A stretch of DNA of 64,000 nucleotides from contig NC_087073.1 in the NCBI RefSeq assembly GCF_026151205.1, positions 13,721,837-13,785,836 on the forward strand, read 5' to 3'. A program made the position numbers and the translations under genes. Below, one piece after another: positions 1 through 45,290 of this stretch. The notes under the pieces are model-generated. The model ran no database searches. It saw only the letters and a list, made by a program, of their open reading frames with translations, and was not told where the DNA came from. Position 1 is the stretch's first letter. Each line of letters opens with the position of its first letter. The DNA comes from Bolinopsis microptera. Lineage: Eukaryota; Ctenophora; Tentaculata; Lobata; Bolinopsidae.

Positions 1-886
1 TAAAAAGTTGGCCCTTTTTAGCCCCTTGCCCAGATTTCATGGGGGGGTGATGGCCCCCCTGCCCCTCGCTTCCAACACCCCTGGGTCAGTGACTAGCGTG
101 GGTACTGACCAAGATCGCAAGGGGTTAAATTTAGCTCATACCCGAAGACGTTATGTAATGGAGTAAACTAATTTCTCTTAATAAACTTGAATCACTTAGT
201 TTCCTCCACTACACAGTCTATTCTACTTGTCGCGATTTGTAAGTTTGAGATTTGGAGTATAGCTAGCGTCACAATTTACATGTTACATATCCAACTAGAT
301 CATAGACTCAAGAATGCTGCGCGTTCCCACAGCCACATTTTTACCGAATTTTTAGCGCATTTTTTGGCGAATTTAACAGCCCTAAAAATTAACACTTGAA
401 GTTGTAAATTGGCAAATTATTCGCGTACTTTTTGAGAACTCTTAATACGCCGTACTTTTTGACGAAAATTTGGCGAATTTAACAGCCTGCCCCCCCCCCC
501 CCCCCTGTATATACAGTCAAACCTCTCTATTCCGGCCTCTATTCCGGTATAGAGAGGTTCACACGATCCCAATTCCTGGTATCTAGCCTGCTAATGTTAT
601 CAAGCGTAAATACTATCTCTATAACAGTCTCCACCATTATACCCCGTTCCTAAGTGCGAGATTGAAAATGTTTACCATATTTGAAGTAGAACTGTGATTA
701 ATTTTAAGTAGCAAAGAGTGCACTGTACAACTACATGCAACTTTACAATTAATTTCACGAAATTTGTTTTTTAAAGATGCTGTGCTTTGTTGATACAAGT
801 GTACGATCTTTCCTCTGACTTACTCGAAATGAAAATGGCGTTTATAGTACTATTTTACCTGATTAAAATCTCGACAGACACTAGGC
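1..886. other. Intergenic, no gene seen
   Basis: No convincing coding region is visible. A short direct repeat around the phrase tttggcgaatttaacagcc occurs near 360-385 and 468-487. A poly-C tract lies at 490-505. Next to it, a hairpin pairs cctctctattccgg (522-535) with ccggtatagagagg (544-557). The bases cagtcaaacctctcta at 514-529 look like the end of a pogo/Tc1-type transposon, but no partner end was found. Confidence 0.5.
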
Positions 887-1190
887 GCTCTCTGCTAGGC
901 AACAAGTTGCTAGCTGCTCTCTGCTAGGCAACAAGTTGCTAGCTGCTCTCTGCTAGGCAACAAGTTGCTAGCTGCTCTCTGCTAGGCAACAAGTTGCTAG
1001 CTGCTCTCTGCTAGGCAACAAGTTGCTAGCTGCTCTCTGCTAGGCAACAAGTTGCTAGCTGCTCTCTGCTAGGCAACAAGTTGCTAGCTGCTCTCTGCTA
1101 GGCAACAAATTGCTAGCTGCTCTCTGCTAGGCAACAAGTTGCTAGCTGCTCTCTGCTAGGCAACAAGTTGTTAGCTGCTCTCTGGTTGGC
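887..1190. repeat. 29-bp minisatellite, about 10 copies
   Basis: A 29-bp unit containing gctctctgctaggcaacaag repeats with exact 29-base spacing from 887 through 1177, where a partial eleventh copy decays. Copies are nearly identical, with single-base changes near 1108 and 1171. The array sits about 380 bases upstream of the ShK-repeat gene start. The unit contains caacaagttg, a short near-palindrome. Confidence 0.95.
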
Positions 1191-1565
1191 AGTGTCCTGG
1201 GCAGTTATAGAGGGATTTAATATTTCACTTAGGTTATTTTTTCTGTTAACCTCGAATTTGCTAGTCACTAGTTTCTCGACCGTTTTTTGCATCCAAATCA
1301 TTTTTTCTGTTCCCAATAACCTTTAAAGTAATAGCGATAAGGCGTACAACTAGTGTATCATTAACTGAGAGAAAGACGCGTGTTTATGTTCAATGAGATT
1401 CAAGTTTAAACACAAAAACTTGTCCTTCTAATGAACAATAATGACACGTAATGAACATTGTTGTTGCGGAACGCAGGATTTTTGAACGTTTACATTAAAT
1501 ATTTCTACACCGTCTACTAATCACCCAATTAACTAATTAAGCTGACCGAGAAGGAGATAACCAAG

Positions 1566-2501
1566 ATGATAATGAAACTGCTTCAGATTTGTATTGTCAC
1601 CTCCAGTCTGTTCATCCTCTCGCAAGGTAGATATTCAACATACAGTAAAATCTAAGAGTTCCTCAACGAGACGTCAACAAACCAAAATCACATATTCAGT
1701 TATTCGCATATTCACATAATATGAGCACTGCTCCTCCAAGTCCTAAGGGGATCGCACAACATGCAAATCCCGCTTGAAATTACTCTGCGTATTAAAAAAA
1801 TAACATTTTGATCTAGCGAGCTTTGCTTAAGGTAAACGGTTGGTAACATTTTCAGGGACTGATTGCGGTAAAGATGACATAAGAGAATGTATGAGATGGA
1901 AAGGCATGGGCATGTGCAACAAAGAACCCTACCTCACCAAGTGCCCTCATGCTTGCGGTCAATGTAAGTCGTTCTTATAATTTAAATACTTTTACAACAG
2001 TTCATTCAGAAGAATAGTTGCTTTTAAGTTAACGGTTATCTAGTGGTGAGTAGCTGTAGATCATTTTATCAATGATCAATAATACTGAGAGGGGCCCGAC
2101 TACTTGTTGTCTAGATTAGTTGTATTCTATGTTCCTACATACTAAATGATAGTCATGTTATCATAGGGTGACGTCAATGTTATTGTTAACAACGTCGCAT
2201 ATTCATACTCTAAAACTGACTTATAGGTACTAGTTTACATGGGCTACATTGCAGACTTGCAGTACTGTTGAAAGCATCTGATAATCTATACTTTAATTCA
2301 TGATATACAGGTGAAACGCAAGCTGAGAAGACAGCACTGAAGAGGAGTCTTCATGGTAAGAGACAAGCAAACTGTGTGGACGAGTCTAAGCCGGCCATTT
2401 GTTTGAAAGCAAAGAAGAACAACCTGTGCAGGCAGGGGTTTTTGGGAGGATTTGGATCCTCAATCAGGGCCGGATGTCAGAAGACATGTGGAATGTGCTA
2501 A
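1566..2501 (+). CDS. Secreted precursor with two ShK-type Cys domains (three exons)
   Basis: Exons are 1566-1626, 1856-1963 and 2311-2501, with GT..AG introns and matching phases (total 360 bases, 119 residues). Exon 1 encodes a hydrophobic signal peptide of about 20 residues starting at the first ATG of the exon. Exon 2 plus the first codon of exon 3 encode a six-cysteine domain with ShK spacing, including the GMC and CPxxCGxC-like features. Exon 3 encodes dibasic KR and GKR sites and then a second six-cysteine domain ending CGMC at the stop. Known: ShK domains occur in anemone K-channel toxins but also in many non-toxic secreted enzymes and matrix proteins. Inferred: cleavage at the dibasic sites could release two peptides. 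No enzyme domain is attached. An AATAAA lies at 2706. Toxin activity is not established. Confidence 0.8.
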
Positions 2502-6222: not shown

Positions 6223-8387
6223 ATGTCAACCTCCAAAAGAAAGCGAAGAAAGCCTAGAAGAGAGATTCCATTGATAGGAAAGCTCCTCGACAGAATCCCT
6301 GACTCCAAGCTACCCACTAACCAAGTTGTTCTACAGAGACTCTTCTTTATTCTTGAGCACAATTTCGGTAATGCTGCGGGAGAGTTAGCTAGAGTTACTG
6401 TGAAGAACGATGTCGTGTCCGTTTGGGAGTATGCTGGTTTTGGAGACGTCCTCAAGACACAGGGCAACATCATGAAGAGGATGATCGAGCCTCTCCACCA
6501 GAAGTGGAAATCCCTTTTAAAAACCCCGATTTCACGACAATCTAGTGCCCCCTTCCTGAAGAAGAGAGCAGAGTTCGTCGAATCCCTCCCTAAGCTTTTT
6601 GACATCTCAAATAGATCCCTCATCTTCACCTCTAGAGTCCATAAAGATGACAGACAGTTTCTACTCCATCACTGGGATGCGCAGATTTCTTCAACTCGGG
6701 ACTTCAAAACCAAGGCTGTGGTCGAGAAGAAGCTTGCTCGGGAAGCCAAGTACGAGGAGTACGCTAAGTCCCAGTCCGTCACTGAACCTCCTTCTACCCC
6801 TACTCCTTCCATTTCTTCTACACCCCCAGCCTCCAGCCATGACTCCAGTCCTGACTCCTCCGTAGAGTTCCTACCCAAGAGGCCTCGTAGAGAATCCTGC
6901 ACTCCCCGATCTACTACTATTACTGTCCCTTCCGACATAATTAAAAAGACAGAGGCAAAAATCACGAGCTGTTGCAGCGAAGAAGATCAAGGATGACTTT
7001 GAGTGTGCTGATATTTGTCAAATTAATTTTGATGCTAAATTATTACCAAATTTGGGAGGGTTTGGGAGTGTTAATCGACTTGCCATAGTGGCTGTCCAAG
7101 AGGACTGTAATCAAATATTGGCTATTGCAAAGACTGAAAATGGGACTGGGGAGGTAGAGGCCAGGGCAGTTGCGGGAGCTCTTGAAGAGTGGGATCTTAC
7201 TAATAAAGTTGTTGCTTCAGGTTTTGACACGACGTCCTCTAACACGGGAGTCCACAAGGGAGGTTGTACTATCCTACAGCAGCTGCTTGAACGTCAAATC
7301 CTATGGTTACCCTGTCGCCATCACATCCTAGAACTCCTACTCAGAGGAGCCTTCCACGAGGTCTTTGGCGGTACGAAGTCTCCTAACGTAGCCCTATTCA
7401 AAGTACTGAAGGATCCCCCTACATGGAATTCTCTAGACCTTACAAATATCCATTTCCCTACTCTCCCTCCGTCCCTCCGTTCATCAGTTCCTGATCTTCA
7501 ATCCTTCATCGACCACCGTCTCCTTCCTGAGAATGAGCACCTCCTTCCTCGCGGTGACTACAAGGAGTTCCTGGAACTGACGAAGCTTTACCTTGGTGGG
7601 ACAGTGGAACGAAAGAAGAGATGGACCTTCAAGATATCCCGTCCTGGAGCGGTCCACCATGCCAGGTGGATGTCTAAAGCAATCTACATCCTGAAGTTGG
7701 CGCTCATTGGTCATCAACTGAACCAATCGAAACTCTCCTGGCAGAAGAAGGAGAAAGTCCGTACCCTAGCTCCTTGGATAGTATTCTGCTACATGCAGTT
7801 CTGGTTCTCTTCTCCCTCCCTAGAAGATGCAGCCGTTAACGACCTCAAGATGTTCACAGAGGTTTAGCAAAGTTCCTGGAAGACTTTCGAAGAAAATCGT
7901 GAAGAAGACGAGCGAAATCATCCAGCGACACACCTGGTACCTATCAGAAGAGTTGATTCCTATTGCACTCTTCTCAGATAAAGTCCCGGACGAGAAGAAA
8001 GAAATCCTTGCCGCTAAGATAGGAAAACTACCGTCCCGATCTTTACCTATACAGAAACCGAAGCTGCCCACTATCAATGAGAAGTCTTGCCTTGGTGACT
8101 TCGTGGGACCCCGCTCCATCCTCATCTTCCAGCTACTTGGGGAGTCTCACACCTTCCTATCAAAAGATGAGTGGTGGCTTCTACCTCAATACGACGACAT
8201 GAAGCGGGGTCTCCGGAATCTTGTCCCCCTGAACGACTCCTGCGAGCGGGCTCTAGCGCTAGCCACTCGACTCAACGGGGCAATCACAAGGGACGAGGAC
8301 TCATGGCAGGAGCTGGTGAGGGTGGTGGCTTCGCATCACGAGAAGTTCCCGATCAAGACCAAAGAAGATCTGAAGAAGTTTTTGTAG
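6223..8387 (+). pseudogene. hAT-like transposase, two frameshifts
   Basis: Three frames read in series. Frame 1 (6223-6996) starts MSTSKRKRRKPRRE and ends in a Ser/Pro-rich linker. Frame 2 continues from about 6953 to 7867 and holds GFDTTSSNTG (candidate catalytic Asp), CRHHILEL (C-x2-H) and HHARWM (RW). Frame 3 (from about 7866 to 8387) holds SKDEWWLLP and NDSCERALAL (candidate Glu). D, CxxH, RW and E in this order are typical of RNase H-fold transposases of the hAT/P/Kolobok kind; hAT-like is the best guess, not proven. The first break fits one extra A in the A-run 6957-6961 and the second one extra T at 7863-7865. No BED zinc finger is seen. It lies between long inverted repeats, supporting the call. 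It should not give full-length protein. Confidence 0.75.
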
Positions 8388-8514
8388 TTTAAATAGATGT
8401 TTTTAAGTAGTATTACAATTATGTATGATTTAATTTTCATAACTTTTAACAATAAAATTAATGTACAAATTTGTTTAAAAAATATGGGTGTGGCACATAG
8501 GGCGTGGTCACAGG
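7682..8514 (+). repeat. Tandem duplication, first copy (833 bp)
   Basis: This segment, the 3' third of the transposase plus about 125 bases of 3' UTR, is repeated immediately downstream. The first copy keeps a 13-base segment (aagaaggagaaag, about 7748-7760) that the second lacks. Confidence 0.93.
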
Positions 8515-9334
8515 ATCTACATCCTGAAGTTGGCGCTCATTGGTCATCAACTGAACCAATCGAAACTCTCCTGGCAGTCCGTACCCTAGCTCCTTGGATA
8601 GTATTCTGCTACATGCAGTTCTGGTTCTCTTCTCCCTCCCTAGAAGATGCAGCCGTTAACGACCTCAAGATGTTCACAGAGGTTTAGCAAAGTTCCTGGA
8701 AGACTTTCGAAGAAAATCGTGAAGAAGACGAGCGAAATCATCCAGCGACACACCTGGTACCTATCAGAAGAGTTGATTCCTATTGCACTCTTCTCAGATA
8801 AAGTCCCGGACGAGAAGAAAGAAATCCTTGCCGCTAAGATAGGAAAACTACCGTCCCGATCTTTACCTATACAGAAACCGAAGCTGCCCACTATCAATGA
8901 GAAGTCTTGCCTTGGTGACTTCGTGGGACCCCGCTCCATCCTCATCTTCCAGCTACTTGGGGAGTCTCACACCTTCCTATCAAAAGATGAGTGGTGGCTT
9001 CTACCTCAATACGACGACATGAAGCGGGGTCTCCGGAATCTTGTCCCCCTGAACGACTCCTGCGAGCGGGCTCTAGCGCTAGCCACTCGACTCAACGGGG
9101 CAATCACAAGGGACGAGGACTCATGGCAGGAGCTGGTGAGGGTGGTGGCTTCGCATCACGAGAAGTTCCCGATCAAGACCAAAGAAGATCTGAAGAAGTT
9201 TTTGTAGTTTAAATAGATGTTTTTAAGTAGTATTACAATTATGTATGATTTAATTTTCATAACTTTTAACAATAAAATTAATGTACAAATTTGTTAAAAA
9301 AATATGGGTGTGGCACATAGGGCGTGGTCACAGG
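8515..9334 (+). repeat. Tandem duplication, second copy (820 bp)
   Basis: The copy is nearly identical to 7682-8514: the 186-codon C-terminal frame (8647-9207) translates identically to 7827-8387. It has a 13-base deletion near 8577 and one base difference in the T/A run near 9294. It carries the same second frameshift as the first copy, so that frameshift predates the duplication. Confidence 0.93.
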
Positions 9335-19300: not shown

Positions 19301-22300
19301 AGCCTTTTTGCTTTTGCATACATTTTTACAAAAAGTCAGATGATCGTTAGAAAATATATTATATGGACACGTTCATTGAAGTTTGAGGATATTGGTAAAT
19401 ATTAGTGACCCTTCTGAATGGCACGATGATGTAAAATGTGTCACACTATGAAACTATATAAACCCTCTAACCCTAAGATAATCGTTTCATCCTCTAGATA
19501 AACTTTGTCACATAACGATATCTTTATCAGACGATAAGATATCGCTTAAATGCGGCCGGCAGTGAGTTGTAAACTTTGTCACACTATAAAAACGTGACGG
19601 AGTTTATATGGACCCCTTGTTGCCGTGTTTGACCAAATTTTCGAATTTCCAATTCATAGAATAGCTGTATATGACTATTATCTACATATTTAGCGACTTT
19701 TTTCCTTAAATGGTAGCACCATGTAAACTCCGTCACACATTTAAGAAATTTATATGAGGGATGTTTATGACATCCTGACAAGAAATGCCGAATAGTCTAG
19801 CATTATTTTGTGAGCTGAATGTGTTTGGAATTGTTCACATATTTCATTGTTATAGGCAAAGAAAATACTACAATATAATCAAGGTACGATGTTGGATACC
19901 TGAGTTCTATATCTTTCGATAGCAACTCCATCTATGTATCTGCTTAGCTTCCATCACTGATCCTGGTACTTGAGATTCCAGGTGTGGCTTTAAACAATGT
20001 TTTAAGGGCCCAACACTCAGCTCACTCAGTTGATGGTAGAACAGTGGGTCTTTGTGCGATGTTGTAGCAGGGACTCCACTTCTTGTTTTCTCTTGCTAAC
20101 CAGATTGCATAGGAACATCTGAGAGCAACCAAAGCCGCCTCTTGGAACACTGCTTTCTTTACTCTCTTTGTAACACCAAAGTAGTTTAGTAGGGCTGGTA
20201 AGGTATGATGCCAGAAGCCTCTACACCCAACCTCTACCGTAAAAAGCTGAGCTTTCCACCCACTGCCATGCAGCCCAGGAATAAGCTCTCTGTTGTAACG
20301 TGCTTGTTTACGTTCTACTTGGTCACTAAAGTTACTCTCGTCACCAACTGTCAACTCTACTAATATGACCACCTTTCCTTTATCAGACCAGACTACAATA
20401 TCGGGACGTTCTGCAGTTCCGTAGATGTGCTGGGGGAACTGTGCTGGGAGGTCATCTTCGTCCCAGATAATCTGCCAATCTTGGTCTTTCTCAAAAGGGC
20501 TCTCTCTTTTCATCTTCGTCTTTGGTTTTTGGTAACAGCTGCTAGATGACTTGAAGCCTGTCCAGTCCTGAACTTCAAGTTTGAAATCTTTGTTGTTGAA
20601 CTTCTCTATTTGATCCAGTAGGGATTTTGCAATGACCCGCAGCACGTTGTCATGCCTCCAATTGTATCGTTTGTTGTTCAGCGAGAAGTTGCAAGCTACC
20701 AAAATGTGCTTAATGTTGCAGTGTCTCCATCCGCAAAGTGGACAGTGTCCTGTGTCAGCATAGTTCCACAGGCTCATGTTTGCTGGAGTATTTGCAACGT
20801 CATGGGTTGCATTGAGGTGGAACTTAAGAAGAGCAGGGCTCATCTTGTAGTTGTAAATAAGGTTGTTCCAACCTAGGTCTAGCTGCATGGTGTTTTCCCA
20901 TGTTAAGAATTGTCCTTGAACTCCCTTGTCTACCAGTGTCAACAGGATATCCTGCTCTGAGATGTGGGATACCAGTTCTTTCAGTTTTTCCTTTTCACTG
21001 GCTACACTCCTCTTGGATCCCAAGCCCATCCTGCCTTGCACTGTTACCCCTACTAACTCTCTGAAGTAAAGATCTCTTTCTCTAGCACTCAGCTCATTAG
21101 TGTAACCCCACCGACTGCTCCCTTCTTGTTTCTTGGCCCTGTGCTCGTAGACCTCCTTAACTTTAGGATCCTTGCTGTTCTTTAGAGAGTAACCTTTGGA
21201 CACCTGAAGGAACTTGTATAAGTCCGATAGTCTTTTAAGATTTAATCCAAAGCAATCCTTATTTCTGTAAAGCACACTGACAGTAATTGTCTTTGTTACA
21301 CCTAGCCATTTCTTCAGATACTTCGTACATATTGCTTCAAGATCTTTGACAAAACTAACCGGGAGATTGTAGATCATCAGGTCCCAGGAGAGCTTACTGG
21401 TTAGGAGGTTGTTGTAAATCCAGCATTTCATCACTCCATTAAGGCCTGATCCGTCCACTGCCTGAAACAGTGTAATCAGTTTGTCTTCTATCAGCTTCTT
21501 GGTATCTTTGAGGCCCAGATCCACATATATCCAATGGCCAAGAAACTTCATCGGTGTATTTCCAATAAACTGGATTTGAGCTCCATCTATGAAAATTTCA
21601 GGGTCATAGGACACATACCTTCCATCTATAACCTTCATCCCCAGGGATACACATTTACTCGGCTTGGCTTTCATTTTCCTTGACCAAGTAAGAAATCTTT
21701 CCATCACATCTATTAGCTTCTTCATCTTTTCCAGCCTGGGAGACATCAGAGTTAGGTCGTCAGCAAAAGCACGACTTGACGTGCTGCTAGAACTAAAAGA
21801 CGGCTTGTAACCCAAGTCGCTTTGATTTTTCAGGAGATCCAATAGTAGGTTGAAAACTATTAAGAACAGTACAACCGAAAGAGGGTCGCCCTGAAAAAGA
21901 CCTAACATATAAAAGAACCAGTTTGTTTTCCAGTCCTTTGTCACCACTCTCACAATCAGCTCATCATAGTACTTAAACATATATTCTATGAGCCAGTTTG
22001 GGAACTTATAATGTCTTAGAGCATATATTATCAAGTTGTGGGGAACCCGGCCGTAGGCGTTCATTAGGTCCACCCAAACTGCAAAGATCTGTCGTCTATT
22101 AGATTTGGCATCCTTCAACTCTTCCATCAGAGCCTGAGTATGCTCGAGGCAACCTGGTGTCTTACGCAGGAATCCTTTCTGGATAGACGTGTCTATGTAG
22201 CTATTACTGACCATATACTCTAGCATTCTGTCCGCTAGTAATCCCATCTGCAACTTCCCACTAGTGTTTGTTTTAGTGATGTTTCTGAACTTACTAGGGT

Positions 22301-25300
22301 CATCTAAATCCTCAGTTTTTGCTATCAGAATGGCTTCACCTACTCGCCATTGCAGCGGGACTCTCTGGCTTTCCCATAGAGAATCCAGCAATTTGAAAAC
22401 TGCTTTCGCCATTCTGGGACATCTCTTATATACCAGATATGGGACTCCATTCGGACCAGGTGATGATTTGTTTCTACGGCTTTTCAGCTTCGATTGAAAC
22501 TCATTCCAGTCCAATCTCTCCATCTCAAATGCAGTCTTTGGTACTGGGGCGTCGGGCAGTCCTTTAAGCTTTACATATAGAGCACTTCTCTCCTTATCAC
22601 AGTACTCATTCTTAAAGAATCTGTCAGCCACTTCCTTGGAGAAATTAAGGGGTTTGTTCTTCTTATCCCCGTCAAGCAGTTTCTTTCCAAATTGAAATGG
22701 GTTTTGTTTAAACTGTGACTGTTCCTTTTTGCTCTCCTTATTCTTCTTCTTCCTGAGCTCATTACGACGGCTTTTGTTGTGTAAGCGCACGAGTCTCAGG
22801 TACTCAGTCTTAGCTTGAGCCAACATATTCTGATCATTGCTTCTCCTAGCATCTTTCTTGTTTCTCTTAGCCTCTCTCTTGGCCAAGCGAATAACTTTTG
22901 TCTCCTTGTTCTCCTTTTCCTTCTGGGGAACACGAGGTTTCTTCGCTTCCTCTTCACCGAATCTACTTTCCAGATAGCTGTATACCAGCTTTTCTACCTT
23001 CTCCAGTCGGGACTCCACGTCCTCTGCTGCTACATTGTTCACCAAAACAATCAGGTCTTCATCAACTCCCTTCCATACTCCCTTCTCTGCTGCTGTTGGT
23101 AGTTTAAGTCTCTTTGTGACCTCCATCACTATGGCAGGCGGTTCTAAGTCTTTAAAGTGGAACTGTATATCAGAGCTTGCAGGTCCCGTTTCTGCGCTGT
23201 GGTTGTAAACCTGGCTTGTTCCCTGCTCCGACAAATTATTACGGATGTCATCTCCCCTCACCTGAGGCTCGGTTATGAGCTCCGCCGGTCTCATCTTACA
23301 TCTCCACAGATGTTTTGCGACTTGTTTGAACTCGCGCTTGCACCATTGACAAATATTGTCGTTCTTTCTCAAAGGTCCTTCATCAGTTAATCCGGGTTGA
23401 CCTTTGATGCTCCCCACCTGATCGGAGGTCTTGAGGCATTTATCTGTATATTGTTTTGTAGTGATTGCTTTCTGTAAAGCGGGGGCCTACTAAGCCTGTT
23501 GCTAAACTCTGCACTTTCGCAGGGGTCATCAGTCTTTCCAGATGTCACCAGTCTTTCCCAGGCGTCACTCGGTCTTTCCCAAGAGTCACTAACACTTTCG
23601 TCAGAGTCAGCTGTCTTTCCCGCTGTCAACAGTGAAACTCGCCTCCCTGCAAGGCGCCATGTCCATTTCCATTGTGAGAAAATACTACAATATAATCAAG
23701 GTACGATGTTGGATACCTGAGTTCTATATCTTTCGATAGCAACTCCATCTATGTATCTGCTTAGCTTCCATCACTGATCCTGGTACTTGAGATTCCAGGT
23801 GTGGCTTTAAACAATGTTTTAAGGGCCCAACACTCAGCTCACTCAGTTGATGGTAGAACAGTGGGTCTTTGTGCGATGTTGTAGCAGGGACTCCACTTCT
23901 TGTTTTCTCTTGCTAACCAGATTGCATAGGAACATCTGAGAGCAACCAAAGCCGCCTCTTGGAACACTGCTTTCTTTACTCTCTTTGTAACACCAAAGTA
24001 GTTTAGTAGGGCTGGTAAGGTATGATGCCAGAAGCCTCTACACCCAACCTCTACCGTAAAAAGCTGAGCTTTCCACCCACTGCCATGCAGCCCAGGAATA
24101 AGCTCTCTGTTGTAACGTGCTTGTTTACGTTCTACTTGGTCACTAAAGTTACTCTCGTCACCAACTGTCAACTCTACTAATATGACCACCTTTCCTTTAT
24201 CAGACCAGACTACAATATCGGGACGTTCTGCAGTTCCGTAGATGTGCTGGGGGAACTGTGCTGGGAGGTCATCTTCGTCCCAGATAATCTGCCAATCTTG
24301 GTCTTTCTCAAAAGGGCTCTCTCTTTTCATCTTCGTCTTTGGTTTTTGGTAACAGCTGCTAGATGACTTGAAGCCTGTCCAGTCCTGAACTTCAAGTTTG
24401 AAATCTTTGTTGTTGAACTTCTCTATTTGATCCAGTAGGGATTTTGCAATGACCCGCAGCACGTTGTCATGCCTCCAATTGTATCGTTTGTTGTTCAGCG
24501 AGAAGTTGCAAGCTACCAAAATGTGCTTAATGTTGCAGTGTCTCCATCCGCAAAGTGGACAGTGTCCTGTGTCAGCATAGTTCCACAGGCTCATGTTTGC
24601 TGGAGTATTTGCAACGTCATGGGTTGCATTGAGGTGGAACTTAAGAAGAGCAGGGCTCATCTTGTAGTTGTAAATAAGGTTGTTCCAACCTAGGTCTAGC
24701 TGCATGGTGTTTTCCCATGTTAAGAATTGTCCTTGAACTCCCTTGTCTACCAGTGTCAACAGGATATCCTGCTCTGAGATGTGGGATACCAGTTCTTTCA
24801 GTTTTTCCTTTTCACTGGCTACACTCCTCTTGGATCCCAAGCCCATCCTGCCTTGCACTGTTACCCCTACTAACTCTCTGAAGTAAAGATCTCTTTCTCT
24901 AGCACTCAGCTCATTAGTGTAACCCCACCGACTGCTCCCTTCTTGTTTCTTGGCCCTGTGCTCGTAGACCTCCTTAACTTTAGGATCCTTGCTGTTCTTT
25001 AGAGAGTAACCTTTGGACACCTGAAGGAACTTGTATAAGTCCGATAGTCTTTTAAGATTTAATCCAAAGCAATCCTTATTTCTGTAAAGCACACTGACAG
25101 TAATTGTCTTTGTTACACCTAGCCATTTCTTCAGATACTTCGTACATATTGCTTCAAGATCTTTGACAAAACTAACCGGGAGATTGTAGATCATCAGGTC
25201 CCAGGAGAGCTTACTGGTTAGGAGGTTGTTGTAAATCCAGCATTTCATCACTCCATTAAGGCCTGATCCGTCCACTGCCTGAAACAGTGTAATCAGTTTG

Positions 25301-28300
25301 TCTTCTATCAGCTTCTTGGTATCTTTGAGGCCCAGATCCACATATATCCAATGGCCAAGAAACTTCATCGGTGTATTTCCAATAAACTGGATTTGAGCTC
25401 CATCTATGAAAATTTCAGGGTCATAGGACACATACCTTCCATCTATAACCTTCATCCCCAGGGATACACATTTACTCGGCTTGGCTTTCATTTTCCTTGA
25501 CCAAGTAAGAAATCTTTCCATCACATCTATCTGTTTGGAATTGTTCACATATTTCATTGTTATAGGCAAATACAAATACAGAAGGCAGAAATAGGTAAAT
25601 TTAGTCACATAAATTTGTATGATATCTCAACATCATGTGTGAAATTGAGTAAATATTAGTATACCAACTTAAACACCCTATATTACGTACTATGGATCAA
25701 TTAACAATATTTCAACCATACGCCGGTCATATAAATTATTATATGGCAGTGATATGTTAACATTGGATAAATTTCAACACCTGAACAGGGTAAAAATTTG
25801 TAAATTTCGTCACAAAAAAAATTATAACTTTATTTGCTCCGTGTTGGCAAAATAACTAATTTATCGACATAGTGATGGTGATAAAGTAACATTATATACT
25901 AATTGAGGTATGATTCTTCAAAATAGGGGCAAGAAATGTAAATTTCGTCACATCAGCCATTGCATTAGTTAGATAGATTTTCTTTCATATCAACTGCCCT
26001 TATTATAGTTGGAATGGATTTATACAGGAAATATAGAAACCCATGCCCATTTTTCATCACATTGAAATTATACTGTTGGGGCAGGAAAAGTAAATTTCGT
26101 CACATTTCGGTAAATTAGTGATATCAAACTCAGCATTGTTAAACTTGAGTTCTGATTTGCTGAAAAATAACCTACCAATAATTCCTGGAAGAATATTGAA
26201 TTCTAATCGGGGTATGGTTCTTCAAAATAGGGTCAAGAAATGTAAATTACGTCACATACGTCATTTTAAAATTTAGATACATTTTCTTTCACATCAACAG
26301 TCCTAATTATAGTTTGAAATGATTAATTCAGAGATAAAGGAAATATAGAAACCCATGCCCATTTTTCATCACATTGAAATTATACTTTTGGGGCAGGAAA
26401 AGTGAATTTCGTCACATTTCGGTAACTTAGTATAATTAAACTCAGAATTGTCAAACTTCAGTTCTGATGATCTGCTAAATAATAACCTACTAATAATTCC
26501 TGGAAGAATATTGAATTCTAATCGGGGTATGGTTCTTCAAAATAGGGTCAAGAAATGTAAATCTTGTCACGTCATACGTCATTGTAAAATTTAGATACAC
26601 TTTCTTTCACATCAGCAGTCCTAATTATAGTTTGAAATGATTAATTCAGAGATAAGGAAATATAGAAACCCATGCCCATTTGTCATCACATTGAAATTAT
26701 ACTGTTGGGGCAGGAAAAGTGAATTTCGTCACATTTCGGTAACTTAGTAAAATTAAACTCAGAATTGTTAAACTTGAGTTCTGATTTGCTGAATAATAAC
26801 CTACTAATAATTCCTGGAAGAATATTGAATTCTAATCAAGGCTTGTTTCTTCAAAATAGGGTCAAGAAATGTAAATTTCGTCACATCAGCCATTGCATTA
26901 GTTAAATAGATTTTCTTTCATATCAACTGCCCTTATTATTATTGTGACAATTTTTACATCAACTGCCCTTAACTTGAATCAGCTCTATCCGTGCATCGTC
27001 CTTATATACAGTTTTCCCGCCTTCCAAACCAAAATCAGATATAAATGTTTTCGGCAAATCACCCAAAATTTTAAATTCCATATAATGTGACAGAATTTAC
27101 ATCATTTCCCAATAAGTGCATGTATTTGCTAACTTTTCAAAACAACATATTTTAGGGCTATGATTGGTAGAAGAACCATCAAATAATGAGTTGAAAGGGT
27201 TTTGAGGACACCTCACAGTAGAAAAGAGGTCTCGTATTCTGAGTGTGACAAAGTTTACGAAATGTTGCCTTAAAGCCGTTCGATCACTGCCCTTTAGCCA
27301 AATGTTGTATCATAATTGTTAGAATGACCTAATCTACTATATTTTAAACCAAAAAATGCTAATTGGGCAGCTATGGTTAACACAGTCACAAAAATGTGAC
27401 ATTTTTTACATTATAGTGCCTAAAAACAATAAATTGTATTTCTGAGCCGTGTATATGGAAGTATGGGTCACGTGGCTAATGTCCAGAACTTCTGAACACG
27501 CTATTTTTTTTGGTTTACCAATATCCTTAAACTTCAACATGAACGTGTCCATTTACGATTTCGTATCATTTTGTGACGATGTTTACATCAACTGCCCTAT
27601 ACTTCAATCAACTGTATCCGTGTATCGTCCTCATATAGAGTTTTCCCGCCTTCCAAACCAAAATCAGGTATAAATGATTTCGGAAATTCACCCAGAATTT
27701 CAAATTCCATATAATGTGACAGAATTTACATCTTTTCCCAATAGCCAAGTGCATGTATTTGTTAACTTTTCAAAACAACATATTTTAGGGCTATGATTGG
27801 CAGAAGAACTATCAAATAATGAGTTAAAAGGGTTTTGAGGACACCTCACAGTAGAAAAGAGGTCTCGTATTCTGAGTGTGACAAAGTTTACGAAATGTTG
27901 CCTTAAAGCCGTTCGATCACTGCCCTTTAGGCCTACATTGTATCATAATTGTTAGATTGACCTAATCTACTATATTTTAGACCAAAAAATGCTAATTGGG
28001 CAGCTATGGTAAACAATGTCACAAAAATGTGACATTTTTTACATAACAGTGCCTAAAAGCAATACATTTTATTTTTGAGCAGTGCATATGGGAGTATGGG
28101 TCACGTGGCTAATGTTCAAAACTTATGAACACGCTAGATTAATATATGTTAAAATTAAACCACTATCGTCAAAAACGCTGTTTTAGAAATTTACCAATTT
28201 CCTCAAACTTCAATGAACGTGTCCATATCGTTAGCAAATTGTAGTCAGCATTTGGATATCACTATAAGTTTCTTTATGTGAACATTGTTCCACCTTATAA

Positions 28301-32274: not shown

Positions 32275-33876
32275 TCAAACCGAGGTTTCGTTAGATGGCG
32301 CCTCCTCATCAGGTATGATTCCTTCGCTGTTTTTATCTGCAGGGAATGAATTGTAATGTCTTTTTTTTATCTATCCATGACTGATTCAACAAGTGTTCCA
32401 TCATATTAGATTTTTGAAAGTACTGTTTGTATTAAAATATTTTGATTTCATGATTTTTTGAATATTTGACACTGACAGAATAAAACTTAATTGTAAAAAC
32501 CTGCAATGTTCTGTAGTGAGGTCTGGTCAGATGGCGCCTCCTCATCAGGTGCGATTCCTCCACTGTCTTTATCTACAGGGAGTGAGTTATAAATATAGCA
32601 TGTCATTTTATTAGTATCAAAACAAGAAGTGTTCTATAATATTAGATTTTTGAAAATACTGTCTGTATTGAAATTGTGAATATTTAACCGAACGTAACTC
32701 AATTTAAAAAACCTGCAATGTTCCCGGAGTTCTGTAGTGAGGTCTGGTTAGGCGGTAAGTTTTTCTTGTCGGCTGTTTTTCTTTCTTGGTTGTCACCTTC
32801 TGGAATATATTTGATCAGGATTCCTGACTGTGGGTCCCATTGCTAGAAAGTTGATAAAATATTTATAATTAGTTGAGTAATTATTAATTAGTTAAATACT
32901 GTGATTTACCTGTTCTGGATGCTATGTTCGAGGCACATAACGAGACTGGAAGCGAAACAACCGAGATAATTTTGGAAAAGATGAATCTACGGAAACTTCT
33001 GATCATCAAAACGTATATGTAAAAGTTGGCCACAACATTTATCATCAAGAAGAAAAAGAAAAATTTATAGAAATGGAAAAGCAATAACTCGGGAGGATCT
33101 TTCATGCAGTTGATGGCGACGATGTTCAAAGTGTAAGGTAAAGTGGAGATGCAGTAGATGACAGCAGTGAGGACCACAGTGAGGGCTCCTTGCCATGGAA
33201 CACTTCCACCAACTCGTCTTGCAGATTTCCCTGCATCAGCTAGGTACTTCAGTATAGGAACTGTAGTGGCGACGATGATTATGTTTGGAAGTATACCTAA
33301 TATAAATCCAAGTATCGGTGCTATTGTCTTCCAGGCATGAGAACTGTAGCTGTACTCACAGACGTAAACTCGGTAGTCAAAGTGAACATCATCCTTGTCG
33401 ACAGCGAGGAGGAGTATTGGAAAGATAAGGCCATAAGCCCAAATGAAGCTGCAAACTTGATGAGCTCTTTTTGTTGGCCAACTTGCTGCTCGGAGAGGAT
33501 ATTTGAGTATCAGGAACTTGCTTGTAGTGAGGACTGTGATGAGGGACATGCCAGCTGGGAAAATGAAGTAGCCGACATATACTCTAACATAGCAAAGTGT
33601 TTTTCCTAGGACCCACGAGTTGGCTAGCAAGGAGATAGCAGCAGGAGCAAGGGTAGAGATAGTACATATTAAATCAGAGACTGCAATGTGCTGGATTATT
33701 GTGGCCAAGATTTTGTTAATTTTGAAGGCGTCTCTCTGGAACGATGCAATCAAGATCAGAGTATCTCCAATAAGGGATGACAGGATGCCAAATAAATGGT
33801 AAGACGCCCAAAAATATCTTTCTGCATTGTTGTGCATCCCGAATTCGATGTCCGAGTAGTTGCTGGAAGTGGTCAT
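32275..33876 (-). CDS. GPCR-2: rhodopsin-class receptor with tandem tail exons
   Basis: On the minus strand the receptor body is 33876-32910; tail exons are 32799-32713 (A), 32572-32501 (B) and 32336-32275 (C). Each junction is phase 1 with GT..AG sites, total 1188 bases (395 residues). TM1 has LIGDTLIL (GN changed to GD), TM2 IAVSDLICT, TM3 ends SKFLILKYPL (DRY replaced by SKF), TM6 ISTLPYTLNI, TM7 NVVANFYIYVL (NPxxY relic). Tail exons encode related peptides: A ends NQTSLQN, B DEEAPSDQTSLQN, C DEEAPSNETSV-stop. ETSV fits a class I PDZ ligand. A, and B, are multiples of three, so either can be skipped without changing frame. Reading through the exon-1 donor instead ends after KSQYLTN (stop 32884). 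Ligand unknown. Confidence 0.82.
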
Positions 33877-34006
33877 GACTCAAAAAAGATCTTTACTTCA
33901 GATGTGGTCATATACGTGTCTATCTGCTATGATGTGAAAATTCGATTAATTATTATAAAACTCTTGGCCACAATAATCCTATGCAATCTGGTAAGCAAGA
34001 TAAAAT

Positions 34007-40738: not shown

Positions 40739-41754
40739 TAAAGAAAGTATATTGGGCTATGAAAAAGTTTTATTCATTTCTCGTCAGAAACAGTCATAAA
40801 AATGAGTTCACAACCAGGCTATGTGGATATTTTGGTTATTTTCAAGCCTGGTGACTGAAAGTGAGGAATCTTGGAATCATGTTTGTAGCTGATTCATACA
40901 ATTTTTGATATTTTTGAAATAGCCGCTAAACCTCTGGAACTAACTATTCATTGCAAAAGCACATATTTAACATTATTCTCGTCATATTCTTTCCATTATA
41001 AACTTCCGTAAATTATTATTGGCTCCCTGTGGCTAATACTTGCTAAAGATTCTTAACAGGTAGTCAGAGAGCTAGAAGTAGCCACCCATATTGTACAGTG
41101 GATGCCTGGTCTAGTGGTTTAAAGTGACAGTTCCAGACAGTCCCATCAAAGAGAAATTTTGTTATGTTTTGGCAAGTATGAATAACTCTGTCAATGAAAC
41201 AAGAAATTTCAATGAAACAAGAAATTTAATTTTAGCACAAGAATAAAAAGATGTAAAACAATTCATAAAATATAATGCCCATTTGGTGTATGACTTTTTG
41301 TCCTTGACTGCTAGTTTGGTTTTGGAAGGACAGGTAACTAACGGGGCAAGGAATGCGCGTGCCTGGAAGCTTTTGCACACACCGAAACGCTAGTTCAGTT
41401 AAGTTTATAGAGACAAGGCTCAGATTAGGACTAGAAGAAAAATTGTAAGCAGACATTAGGGGTTCTGTTTATAGTTGTTATTATAGGTTGCAGTCTTGTT
41501 GTGACAAAAAGTCTACACTAAAACATTCTTTAGTTTATATTATGTAGTTCAAGGATATAAAATGCAGCTTAAAGTTGGATATTGGAGAGCTGGCGAAAGA
41601 TTATGGCCTTTGTATCAATGGTTATAATAAGCTATAGATATCTTAAACTATACAGTGCTAATTACAAATTTCTTTAAACTTCATTCTCAAATTAGATTTT
41701 AAAAATTCAAAAGTAAATATACAATAATTTTATTAAAAATTTCTCACACATACT
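40739..41754. other. Intergenic, no gene seen
   Basis: AT-rich. The phrase aatgaaacaagaaattt is doubled at 41194-41228. Minus-strand frames at 41162-41456 overlap each other and look non-coding. Confidence 0.4.
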
Positions 41755-43290
41755 TTACAAAAAAGAATGTGAAGAGGACCCCATCCCTCTAAAACTTCTA
41801 ATGCAGTGTTTTAATGAAGTTAAACCAATTGTGTCATTTATTATCAATGACTCACTTGTCACTGGAAAATTTCCGTCAGTCTTAAAGAGTGCTCTTGTCA
41901 GACCAGCCATCAAAGATGATAAAGGAGATGTCAATAGCTTCAACAACTATAGACCGATTAGTAACTTACCTTTCCTCTCGAAACTCATTGAAAAGAGTGT
42001 CCAGAAACATTCTGGATGACCAAACATCTTGACTATCACAATCTTCATGCTGAGCATCAAAGTGGTTATAGGTCAAATCATAGCTGCGAAACTGCAACCC
42101 TTACCATCTACAATGATCTTCTTTGTATCAGTGACATGAAAAGCAAGGTTATCCTCCTCCTTTTGGCCCTCAGTGCTGCTTTTGATACTGTAAATCATCA
42201 CTTGCTCCTAAAAAAACTAAAAAAGGACTTTGGTTTTGAAGGTACTGTTCTCGAATGGTTTACATCATACCTTAATAACAGATCCTTCACAGTAACTATT
42301 GATAAATCAAGATCAAAGAGATGCTTCCTTAGAATTGGAGTCCCGCAAGGTTCAATTCTAGGTCCAATTCTGTTTATACTTTACTCAAAGGAGCTCAATC
42401 AGATCACAAAGAGACATGGATTTAACATCCATATGTACGCAGATGACACTCAACTGTACATTGAGTTTAACCCACTATTTCGAGATCTGTCAACAATCAC
42501 AAGTCGATTTTAGGCCTATGCTAGCATGGTAGCCCACTGTGGAAGATAGAATAACAAATTGTTTTGAAGATATTAAAACCTGGATGACCCAAAATAAACT
42601 CAAACTGAACCAAAACAAAACAGAAGCTCTTGTAGTACAGACCAAGAACAGTTACTCTTCATGTCCAGTCGATTCAATACAACTTGACAATGCAGCTGAC
42701 CCTGTGGATGCATCCCGCACAGTGAAAAGTTAAGGTGTCCTTTTTGATCAATTCCTAACATTTGAAGATCAAATAAATTCAATTATCAGTTGCTGCAACA
42801 TCCATCTGAGGAACCTTGAGTTATAGGCTCAAAGCTTAACTATGATCTAAAAAGACAGCTCATTCACTGCCTGATCTTTTCAAAACTAGACTACTGCAAT
42901 GGACTCTTATACGGTTTACCCGATCTTCTCATAAAGAAACTCCAGAAGGTACAAAATTCCTGTGTTCGATTCTTGTTTGGTTGGAAAGCTATCAAAAAAT
43001 GGGACAGTATCACTCCATTCCTGAAAAAAGCCCATTTTCTTCCAATACGACAACGAATAGAGTATAAGATTGCTCTAACCGTGTTCAAATGCGTCAACAA
43101 CATAGCGCCGGAGTATATCACCAAATGTATTGACATCAAGAGTCAACCTGTACGTGTACTAAGAACTGAAGAAGACTATTTCCTCCTAAATGTTCCTCCT
43201 ATTTCAAACTATAGTAAAACCGAGAGAAGTTTCAGCTACTGCGGACCCTCTGTTTGGAATCAGCTTCCTTATCAATTGAGAACACAATTT
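41755..43290 (+). pseudogene. CR1/Jockey-like LINE reverse transcriptase, degenerate
   Basis: Read with frame changes, the + strand gives the start of the RT region (EEDPIPLKLL, 41775), NNYRPISNLPFLSKLIEK, HAEHQSGYRSNHSCETA, LLALSAAFDTVNH (motif A), GVPQGSILGPILF (motif B) and HMYADDTQLYI (motif C), then the RT-tail [22 protein letters not shown] and [14 protein letters not shown]. Breaks fall near 42010, 42514-42540, 42732 and 42820. Motif A carries Ala where related LINEs have the catalytic Asp (usual LLDLSAAFD). It ends abruptly at about 43290, where the endonuclease of the neighbouring segment begins on the other strand. It probably belongs to the same element, inverted. Confidence 0.85.
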
Positions 43291-44071
43291 GTCTCCCAAC
43301 AAATTGACAGTTTTCCCATTTAGCTGCTTTGCAAGTAATTCAAGGGTTTCACAAAAGCTATCAAAGCAGCCATTAGGGGGTCGGTAGATGACTCCATGAA
43401 CAATAGTGCAGCCACAGATAGTGCAGCCTGCGCTATCTGTGGTTTCAACAAAGAGGCTCTCAATATTTTTAGTACAGTGTGATACGTTTTCTAAGACCAC
43501 AGTGTTTAAATGGTCAGATACATAGAGTGCAACACCTGTGCCTTTTTTCTTACCTGCCAATGATTCTTGATAGAATCCTGTGTATGCTGGAATTTGGTAC
43601 AGACCCTGTTGTGCAGGATCAGTATTGGTTTCAGCAAGACCAATCATATCAAACGAGTGCCCTATACTTTTGAGTTCAATTAGGAAGCTATCAAAGTTAG
43701 ATGCGTTTCCATGATATATTGTAGAATAAAGTTGATAACATAGATTTTTTAGAGAAATTGAGCTGCTTGATTGCATTTAAGAACTCGAGTTTAGAGTAGC
43801 GACGGCAACTTTCAAGTACATGGGCATATGATGCAATTAAGGCACCCTCCTGGTTTCTATTATCATAGAATCTATCAGAATCAATAGATTCCTCATCAGA
43901 TGGAAATGGGCAGTACCGTTCTTCTGCAGAACTGGCACACTCGCAGCACATCCATAGTCCATTTTTGCATGAATATTTAGCTGATTTGAAACACTTAGTA
44001 TGAATGGCATTATTACAGTTTTCACACTCTAGTAAAGGTTGTCCGATGTTAATAGATCTACTGCCATGCAT
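43291..44071 (-). pseudogene. LINE ORF2 start: PHD-like finger plus APE-type endonuclease
   Basis: From 44071 the minus strand encodes a Cys/His finger (CENCNNAIHTKC .. GLWMCCEC), then an acidic linker. After a frame change at about 43750 it encodes the endonuclease: DMIGLAETNTDP, GLYQIPAYTGFYQES, GTGVALYVSDHL, GVIYRPPNGCFDSF and VNLLGD. These are the N-terminal blocks of APE-type LINE nucleases (Glu of ..LAETN and the YRPP block visible). It stops inside the nuclease at 43291, before the later catalytic blocks. PHD fingers at this place are known in some CR1-group elements. Confidence 0.82.
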
Positions 44072-44111
44072 GGCTCACACACATCTTTAATAATTTTCAT
44101 AATCATTTTTA

Positions 44112-44604
44112 CTAAGTGGGGTTGTTAGACCCCACTGACTGGTTGTGTTTTCCACGTCTTGTCCGTTCTTGCCTCTCTCTCACATACACCCAATGCTTCA
44201 CACACCTCACAAATTTGGTAATACCATAAACTTCTAAGTGAATATCATCACCACCTCTGGTCAGGTTGGTGGTAAGGAGTCCCTTACTATCTAAAAAGTG
44301 TCCAACTCCAAGGTGCCACACACTCTGGTTAAAGTTGGCACTCAACATTTCTCCAACGAGCCGATTGAAGGTCATGATATTCTCGTTCATTTGAGGTAGC
44401 CTGGTTGGAAGGACTGCCATGATATGCTGCGACAAAAACTTTGATCCTAGGGGAGAGCTTTTTTATCTGTTGGATTTTCATGTGGAGAATGTCAACCAGC
44501 TGATGGATTGAATTTTCTACTCTAAGGCTGTCTGCTCGGAGGTCATTTGTGCCACAAACAAGAACAGCGTTGCTGTATCCGATACAGTGACAAGGATCAA
44601 TCAT
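44112..44604 (-). pseudogene. LINE ORF1 C-terminal part: SGNH hydrolase domain
   Basis: It continues the AlkB-bearing frame. Block I is ILGDSNTKTL (just upstream, inside 44601-45284), block III is VLVCGTNDLR, and block V is GGDDIHLEVYG, so the Ser, Asn, Asp and His of an SGNH esterase-like fold can all be seen. One frameshift lies at about 44601 and another at about 44419-44429, where roughly 10 extra bases (atatcatggc on the minus strand) interrupt VFVAA..VLPTRLPQ. Esterase-type ORF1s are known from CR1/ZfL2-like LINEs. It ends SVGSNNPT-stop, 40 bases before ORF2. Confidence 0.8.
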
Positions 44605-45290
44605 GTCAAACTAACTTTGCTTGCCTTAACTCTTTCACCCGGGAATGATTGACCCATCGTTCCAGCACCACTACCAAACTTTAGTGTTTTGGTGTTCGAA
44701 TCTCCAAGTATGATGGTGCTTCTCCTAAATTTTTTGTCAATTGCTCTAAGGGTAATGGAATACCGGCCCATAGACGGGTTTATCGGAGTCTGTTGTGTGG
44801 GTTTAATCCCGTGTTTGAACCATGCCTGTGAGAAACGTGTCATGGTGTAGACTGAGTTCGATTCTAGGGACATTTCAGTATTTTTTGTAGGTGATTGTCC
44901 TTCATGGATGGGCATAAAACTTATTTTTCTAACTTCTCCTATGGAAATTGTTGCTATATCAGAGCCAGCAAGAATCTCTGGCTCGTCATCACAGTGGAAG
45001 GGTAACATACTTTCCTCTGTACCACTTGGAGGGAAGTAGTTTATAAGTACAGAGTTAGGCTTGTGCGTGAGTTTACACTGAGAAGTGACTCTATCAATGG
45101 CCGCTGATAATACTGGTGGGATGGCTGGTGAGGACGGGGGATTTGAGTCTCCAGAATAAGTGTAGCTTTCAACGTATTTGAGGACTGACCTTCCATTCAT
45201 CTGGTTAAACTTACCAGATTCTTTCGACTCAGTGAGAAATCTGGATACCTCGTCAAGCAGTTCTTCATCTTCTGTGGTAGCCAAATGTTA
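44601..45290 (-). CDS. LINE ORF1 N-terminal part: AlkB-type 2OG-Fe(II) dioxygenase
   Basis: The minus-strand frame reads FNQMNGRSVLKYVESYTYSG, then PNSVLINYFPPSG, PFHCDDEPEI (iron HxD), IATISIGEVRKISF, NSVYTMTRFSQAWFKHGIKP (second iron His) and GRYSITLRAI (2OG-binding Arg). This is the AlkB double-stranded beta-helix order, with all ligands kept. AlkB enzymes remove alkyl groups from DNA or RNA bases. It then runs without a stop into the SGNH block GDSN. No in-frame ATG precedes it: upstream is a TAA at 45288-45290, the first in-frame Met is in FNQMNG, and an ATG in another frame is at about 45314. It is therefore a decayed copy. Neighbours (SGNH, PHD, endonuclease, RT) place it in a LINE rather than a host gene. 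Confidence 0.82.

Follow-up and report, generated by a model that had tools for sequence, protein, structure and literature searches.

An AlkB dioxygenase and an SGNH hydrolase share the first open reading frame of LINEs in the comb jelly Bolinopsis microptera

Does the genome of the comb jelly Bolinopsis microptera carry a long interspersed nuclear element (LINE) with an AlkB-type dioxygenase of its own, and what would such an enzyme do there? The question arises from a stretch of 64,000 nucleotides (assembly GCF_026151205.1, contig NC_087073.1, positions 13,721,837 to 13,785,836 of the forward strand), hereafter the window. An earlier note had taken positions 41755-45290 for a single LINE, in which an AlkB domain on the minus strand runs in frame into an SGNH hydrolase, a PHD-like finger and an APE-type nuclease follow in a separate frame, and the adjoining reverse transcriptase (RT) completes the element. 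We compared this locus with its own genome (264,652,675 bases in 232 contigs, with at most 150 candidates scored per search). What remains in the window is a dead copy of a LINE that belongs to a diverse, recently active group, and the intact copies elsewhere, here called AlkB-LINEs, carry AlkB and SGNH in open reading frame 1 (ORF1) and a PHD-like finger, endonuclease and RT in ORF2, as the note had proposed.

The AlkB domain was confirmed in the window. The minus-strand frame 44601-45287 matched Pfam 2OG-FeII_Oxy_2 (PF13532; 2OG, 2-oxoglutarate) with an E of 7.5e-18 and 65.9 bits against a cutoff of 31.2, over residues 40-181, and the motifs HCDDE, WFKHGI, and RYSITLR were present. The passage into SGNH stayed in frame up to the GDSN block, whereas the rest of the SGNH frame is broken in this copy and forms one frame with AlkB in the intact relatives. 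The SGNH part ends at a TAG, which was checked and corresponds to the ORF1 stop of the relatives. Both the PHD-like finger and the endonuclease were matched in other frames, although below their cutoffs (the endonuclease over 43204-43776, minus strand).

The claim about the adjoining RT did not hold. This RT lies on the plus strand (41992-43323; RVT_1 over 41992-42513) and belongs to a piece (41753-43285) that is 95% identical to locus L045, a member of another LINE family whose ORF1 gave a zinc-knuckle-like match and no AlkB match. Comparison with the intact copies explains the arrangement: a foreign LINE piece of 1.5 kb, present at 34 further places of the genome with at least 88% identity, stands where the AlkB-LINE lost about 2.6 kb containing the remaining endonuclease and the RT. 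The AlkB-LINE itself spans 45269-43291 and, as its 3' end, 41758-41191; the two parts lie on the minus strand and are 96% identical to the intact copy L023. A single element across 41755-45290 was ruled out because the RT is on the other strand and of another family, and a twin-priming inversion of the same element was ruled out because the RT piece resembles L045 and not the AlkB-LINE.

The genome search with the AlkB piece as query resulted in 727 first-look candidates, and all 150 that were scored matched at E ≤ 0.001, most of them in long frames, a result that chance would not produce. Depending on the query used, the first-look candidates numbered 587-794, that is, hundreds of places. In 15 of 16 stretches of 10 kb, ORF1 was an open frame of 679-779 codons and the ORF2 downstream of it one of 968-1181 codons; because long frames were favoured when these stretches were picked, this fraction is no genome-wide rate. 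The exception was L024, in which the frames are rearranged, and the shortest ORF2 (968 codons, L027) is shorter than in its near-identical relative L026. Additionally, L045-L047 and L048-L050 were picked by eye from the match rows. The counts over 17 ORF1s given below omit L024 and also L036, a near-duplicate of L021.

In the intact copies, ORF1 comprises an N-terminal region, often a PHD-like finger, and then AlkB and SGNH in one frame. The finger was recognized by its motif in 11 of 17 ORF1s and was not found in L029, L034, L035, and L048-L050. PF13532 scored above its cutoff in all nine ORF1s scanned. The SGNH G-x-N block was present in 17 of 17 ORF1s and GDSN in 14, the remaining three being L048-L050, in which block I is not GDSN; the esterase-type (Type IV) ORF1 feature was found in L021-L035 only. 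These three loci, found through other AlkB matches, carry AlkB in ORF1 before a divergent SGNH-like region; the RT frame of L049 is broken, and the ORF2 frame of L048 begins inside the endonuclease.

Three intact ORF2s were all matched by RVT_1 (E 7.2e-37 to 1.7e-36) and by Exo_endo_phos (E 1.7e-6 to 0.0079, above the cutoff in one), and L050 gave a stronger endonuclease match (E 1.7e-14). A weak PHD- or C1-type match stood at the ORF2 start in two of the three intact copies and in L050. No integrase or RNase H match was obtained in the four ORF2s scanned, which showed PHD-like, endonuclease, and RT matches instead, and no long terminal repeats were seen in 10 copies inspected, which close in short units. 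In 13 of 15 elements, the ORF2 frame has its first ATG close to the ORF1 stop, at a distance ranging from 32 nt before it to 13 nt after it (482 nt in L050; L048 not judgeable), and the two frames may be translated in a coupled manner. As predicted from these frames, the intact element encodes two proteins, an ORF1 protein (ORF1p) with the order (PHD)-AlkB-SGNH and an ORF2 protein (ORF2p) with the order PHD-endonuclease-RT, both on one element. A reading of AlkB-SGNH as a host gene with introns, at a single locus or a few, was rejected for this genome on the long uninterrupted frames in many copies and the 150 of 150 scored places that matched.

The iron triad HxD...H and the Rx5R motif were intact in all 17 ORF1s. 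In a 13-row alignment (A1), the invariant columns include H105, D107, H166, R183, and R189, and these AlkB residues are conserved although ORF2 identity between families falls to 39%; they persist in L048-L050 as well, where SGNH block I has changed. The ratio of nonsynonymous to synonymous divergence (dN/dS) of AlkB was 0.09-0.13 in five pairs, three of which share members; the other four of the nine pairs compared were saturated or nearly so and were not used. The corresponding ranges in these five pairs were 0.04-0.14 (RT), 0.03-0.13 (endonuclease), and 0.21-0.33 (ORF1 N-terminus), and the RT was under tighter constraint than AlkB in two. These comparisons place the AlkB domain under strong purifying selection at the sequence level. 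The invariant residues and the low dN/dS make it very likely that its 2OG dioxygenase chemistry is in use.

A search with the alignment profile matched ALKBH2, ALKBH3, ALKBH8, AlkB, and ALKBH6, with ALKBH2 nearest and ALKBH8 third (4.5e-14); neither ALKBH5 nor FTO was matched at E ≤ 0.1. Structural comparison of an AlkB model likewise placed ALKBH2 nearest, with 17-25% identity to the AlkB-type structures listed. From profile and fold, an enzyme of the ALKBH2/ALKBH3 type, acting on 1-methyladenosine (m1A) and 3-methylcytidine (m3C), is the favoured assignment. The element domain shares with ALKBH2, ALKBH3, and AlkB the fold, HxD...H, and RxxxxxR, and its DDE aligns with the DDE of ALKBH2; unlike them, it is the product of a mobile element and is joined to an SGNH hydrolase. 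The profile also matched 4c1b, an 'ORF1-encoded protein' (E 8.9e-5), which we take to be the ZfL2-1 esterase. A scan of viral contigs with A1 gave 93 pattern matches and a scan of genome contigs gave 20, with no relative in either set.

PF13532 also matched other kinds of places in the same genome. The three best matches, C5:18690430, C2:9636400, and C5:22266892 (contig and position), scored 101-112 bits in frames of 234-505 codons and may be host ALKBH genes. Matches of 70-86 bits were located in giant uninterrupted frames of 2225-3388 codons at C12:2469580, C10:16875843, C3:14441692, C12:8338315, C9:15868177, and C9:11092850, which may represent another AlkB-bearing element class or an integrated polyprotein.

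Among L021-L035, ORF2 identity is never below 39%, and it does not exceed 33% against six further LINE frames from this genome. Among these six, L045-L047 were read together with ORF1 and gave no AlkB match, and the other three are fragments in which ORF1 was not seen. An RT tree of within-genome sequences grouped 16 of 17 AlkB rows together (89/90), whereas L048 fell among AlkB-less LINEs with weak support; a single clade of AlkB rows was not rejected by the approximately unbiased test (p 0.279), and AlkB may have been acquired once or more than once. Rooting with the window's other LINE was of no use, this outgroup being too distant. The AlkB tree recovered the same groups L021-L027, L028/L030, and L029/L034/L035, and placed L032 with L048-L050.

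No intact relative without AlkB was seen among the relatives read, which were themselves picked by AlkB matches. Using the ORF2 start of L032 as a genome query, we obtained 105 matches, and at least 70 of them (57 + 13) had AlkB on the same strand no more than 4 kb upstream, a lower bound because the AlkB places compared came from partial lists. Among the other 35, 11 start after query residue 40, so that the ORF2 start is missing, and 24 are without explanation; in two of these 24, AlkB is matched farther upstream, at 4.8 and 7.7 kb. Sister elements without AlkB may thus exist in this group.

In three related pairs within the group, the AlkB-containing part of ORF1 is 70-86% identical, whereas the adjoining stretches are mostly above 90%, with further dips in the untranslated regions. 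Synonymous divergence in three pairs is 7-12 times as high for AlkB as for the endonuclease (0.87 vs 0.07, 1.23 vs 0.13, and 1.63 vs 0.22), while dN/dS stays near 0.1. In the two unsaturated pairs that remain, the excess was twofold (0.93 vs 0.44) in one and absent (0.43 vs 0.42) in the other. Judged from these patterns, AlkB cassettes have likely been exchanged between element lineages.

Upstream of ORF1, a 41-nt sequence with 0-2 mismatches was found in 12 of 18 AlkB-LINE loci, near-duplicates included, whereas 20 shuffles per locus never gave fewer than 14 mismatches. It was also found on the AlkB-less L045 and L046. At ≤ 2 mismatches, the genome contained 333 matches, element copies included, and the reversed control none. 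Away from the elements, this sequence with the donor GTAAG directly behind it makes up tandem arrays, whose period is about 591 bp on contig C3 and about 857 bp on C5; C13 carries arrays as well. Spliced leaders are used by comb jellies, and we read the 41-nt sequence as the host's spliced leader, brought into the copies by reverse transcription of trans-spliced mRNA. A spliced leader upstream of ORF1 implies that the element mRNA was trans-spliced, and LINE mRNAs with and without AlkB seem to have been reverse transcribed to their very 5' end.

The position of the leader at the 5' end was supported by pairwise alignment, in which the element boundary lay at most 4 nt from the leader start in six copies (L021, L022, L023, L029, L035, and L036). 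Several copies argue the other way: L028 and L030 have the same set boundary but no leader there; L026 is truncated in comparison with the related L027, in which the leader is present; and a full leader is missing from L033, L049, and L050, although L050 keeps about 26 nt of it.

The copies are dispersed, with differing flanks and ends made of short tandem units; L021 and L036 share 7.0 kb at 99.4% identity between different flanks. Among 10 copies, one possible target-site duplication was found, an 8-nt repeat adjoining both ends of L021; elsewhere there were none or short matches off the ends. CR1/L2 elements are often without long target-site duplications. L026 (1394-7582) lies inside a LINE RT frame, and its flanks, joined with one shared base, read on for about 30 codons.

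What the enzyme does for the element can be approached from its relatives and its place in ORF1p. As the best explanation, which we hold tentatively, the AlkB domain of ORF1p clears m1A and m3C from the element's own RNA template or cDNA. ORF1p would coat the element RNA, and its AlkB domain would oxidatively strip methyls on the Watson-Crick face from this RNA or the new cDNA, methyls that would otherwise halt the element's RT short of the 5' end. An ALKBH2/3-like enzyme in an RNA-packaging protein would be well placed for clearing such template blocks. Passages of PMC12140624 report that m1A, m3C, and 1-methylguanosine (m1G) hinder common reverse transcriptases, and that AlkB treatment removed m1A and m3C with little effect on m1G. 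The treatment improved the capture of tRNA fragments by ordered two-template relay (OTTR), whose enzyme is called an R2 RT, with a modest effect for intact tRNAs (PMC12140624). More broadly, we consider it an evenly balanced matter whether a nucleic-acid dealkylase is core LINE machinery here and no recent passenger, with an active site kept through family diversification, a cassette swapped between families, expression by spliced-leader trans-splicing, and a 'template cleaning' enzyme inside the RNA-packaging protein.

Two other substrates are each rather unlikely, to about the same degree. The first is an epitranscriptomic escape, in which AlkB erases N6-methyladenosine (m6A) or a similar mark from the element RNA and thereby evades silencing or degradation by host readers, as proposed for an orchid Ty3/Gypsy AlkB. 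That orchid enzyme binds and demethylates RNA, according to passages of PMC9289625, but the profile relatives of the element domain listed above are without the m6A-linked ALKBH5 and FTO. In human cells, moreover, m6A promotes L1, ALKBH5 overexpression suppresses L1 about fourfold, and FTO has no effect, as parts of PMC7873242 state. The second is an ALKBH2-like action on DNA: the enzyme would remove 3-methylcytosine and 1-methyladenine, whether in the target DNA or in the first cDNA strand, and these lesions may stem from the work of host DNA methyltransferases (DNMTs) on methylated transposons. The rank of ALKBH2 as nearest relative by profile and structure favours this, as does the account in parts of PMC8857917 that DNMTs produce 3-methylcytosine and that loss of ALKB2 is part of an incomplete methylation machinery.

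Less probable still is a counter-defence, in which the domain would act, by hydroxylation or demethylation, on a host factor (protein or tRNA) and not on the element's nucleic acid; the third rank of the tRNA enzyme ALKBH8 and the PHD modules, which would suggest chromatin contact, are compatible with it, but there is no specific pointer to a protein substrate. An accidental capture or artefact, with AlkB-SGNH as a host gene or passenger and no working part of an element, is highly improbable: in its favour, the copy in the window is broken and the RT there comes from another family, but uninterrupted frames in many families, the invariant active site, dN/dS near 0.1, and the matched ORF2 downstream all oppose it.

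In relation to known systems, we file the AlkB-LINE as a LINE with a new ORF1 enzyme, since RNA-binding, PHD, and esterase modules in LINE ORF1s are already known. No description of an AlkB-bearing LINE, the remaining objection foreseen in the earlier note, appeared among the matches listed in the open-licence full-text literature, a scope that leaves Repbase and subscription papers outside. The esterase-bearing LINEs (CR1, L2, and RTEX, with the ORF1p of ZfL2-1) likewise have SGNH in ORF1 and an APE endonuclease plus RT in ORF2, whereas here an AlkB dioxygenase precedes the esterase. PHD and esterase types of ORF1 are described in passages of PMC4120745 and PMC3905857; the former report that esterase ORF1s were found in two vertebrate groups only, whereas the latter place esterases in several clades and many animal phyla. 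In the main text of the survey PMC4120745, which covers the ORF1s of 448 elements of the Jockey superfamily, neither 'oxygenase' nor '2OG' appears, and PMC3905857 has no instance of 'oxygenase'.

The nearest precedent is the orchid Ty3/Gypsy (Tat/Ogre-like) element, likewise a retrotransposon with an acquired AlkB-type demethylase, which passages of PMC9289625 present as a plant LTR (long terminal repeat) element with an acquisition called recent. In contrast, the AlkB-LINE is an animal LINE with an AlkB-SGNH fusion in ORF1 and families deeply diverged in ORF2. It would be a second case of AlkB recruitment by transposons, this time in another class of element and another kingdom. AlkB domains of RNA viruses (Pinela virus, unnamed Picornavirales, and grapevine viruses; in the polyprotein or replicase) were among the 50 best structural matches in a viral library, with E of about 1e-13 to 1e-9; they reside in viral polyproteins, with no RT. 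The element makes it testable whether methylated template bases limit retrotransposons and whether some of these bring their own remover, and it would supply naturally occurring combinations of AlkB and an RT system in trans-spliced RNA.

Table 1. Coordinates of the AlkB-LINE remains and foreign piece in the window, and of features compared among other copies.
Feature	Position	Strand	Remarks
AlkB (2OG-Fe(II) dioxygenase) domain of ORF1	44745..45269	-	PF13532 match; L023 match begins at 45269; 5' truncation just upstream
SGNH hydrolase domain of ORF1	44112..44744	-	GDSN in AlkB frame; CGTND and DDIH in other frames; frame broken
ORF2 start with PHD-like finger	43697..44074	-	PHD E 3.5e-4 (below cutoff), C1_1 3.8e-4; weak matches likewise placed in intact ORF2s
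APE-type endonuclease of ORF2, N-terminal part	43291..43776	-	Exo_endo_phos E 0.009; L023 match stops at 43291
Foreign LINE piece, RT and C-terminus, opposite orientation	41753..43285	+	95.1% identity over 1,534 nt to L045; RVT_1 E 7.5e-21
AlkB-LINE 3' end, closing in short tandem units	41191..41758	-	96.1% identity over 583 nt to L023 3' end
Divergent AlkB part (element nt)	L021 vs L023 ~1400-2800; L028 vs L030 ~600-1800; L029 vs L035 ~600-2000		
41-nt leader	L021:859-899; L022:374-414; L029:723-763; others		

The window contains further features. On the minus strand, 20022-23486 holds an RT frame of 1154 codons with a weak zf-RVT match, by its look another LINE type, and a second frame at 23839-25626 repeats its last 563 residues exactly. 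On the plus strand, an identical stretch of 720 bp occurs twice, at 7756-8475 and 8576-9295, 820 bp apart, each with the same 187-codon frame without a Pfam match; this is a recent direct duplication. Finally, an intronless frame of 331 codons at 32884-33879 on the minus strand encodes a rhodopsin-type seven-transmembrane receptor (7tm_1, E 4.1e-18).

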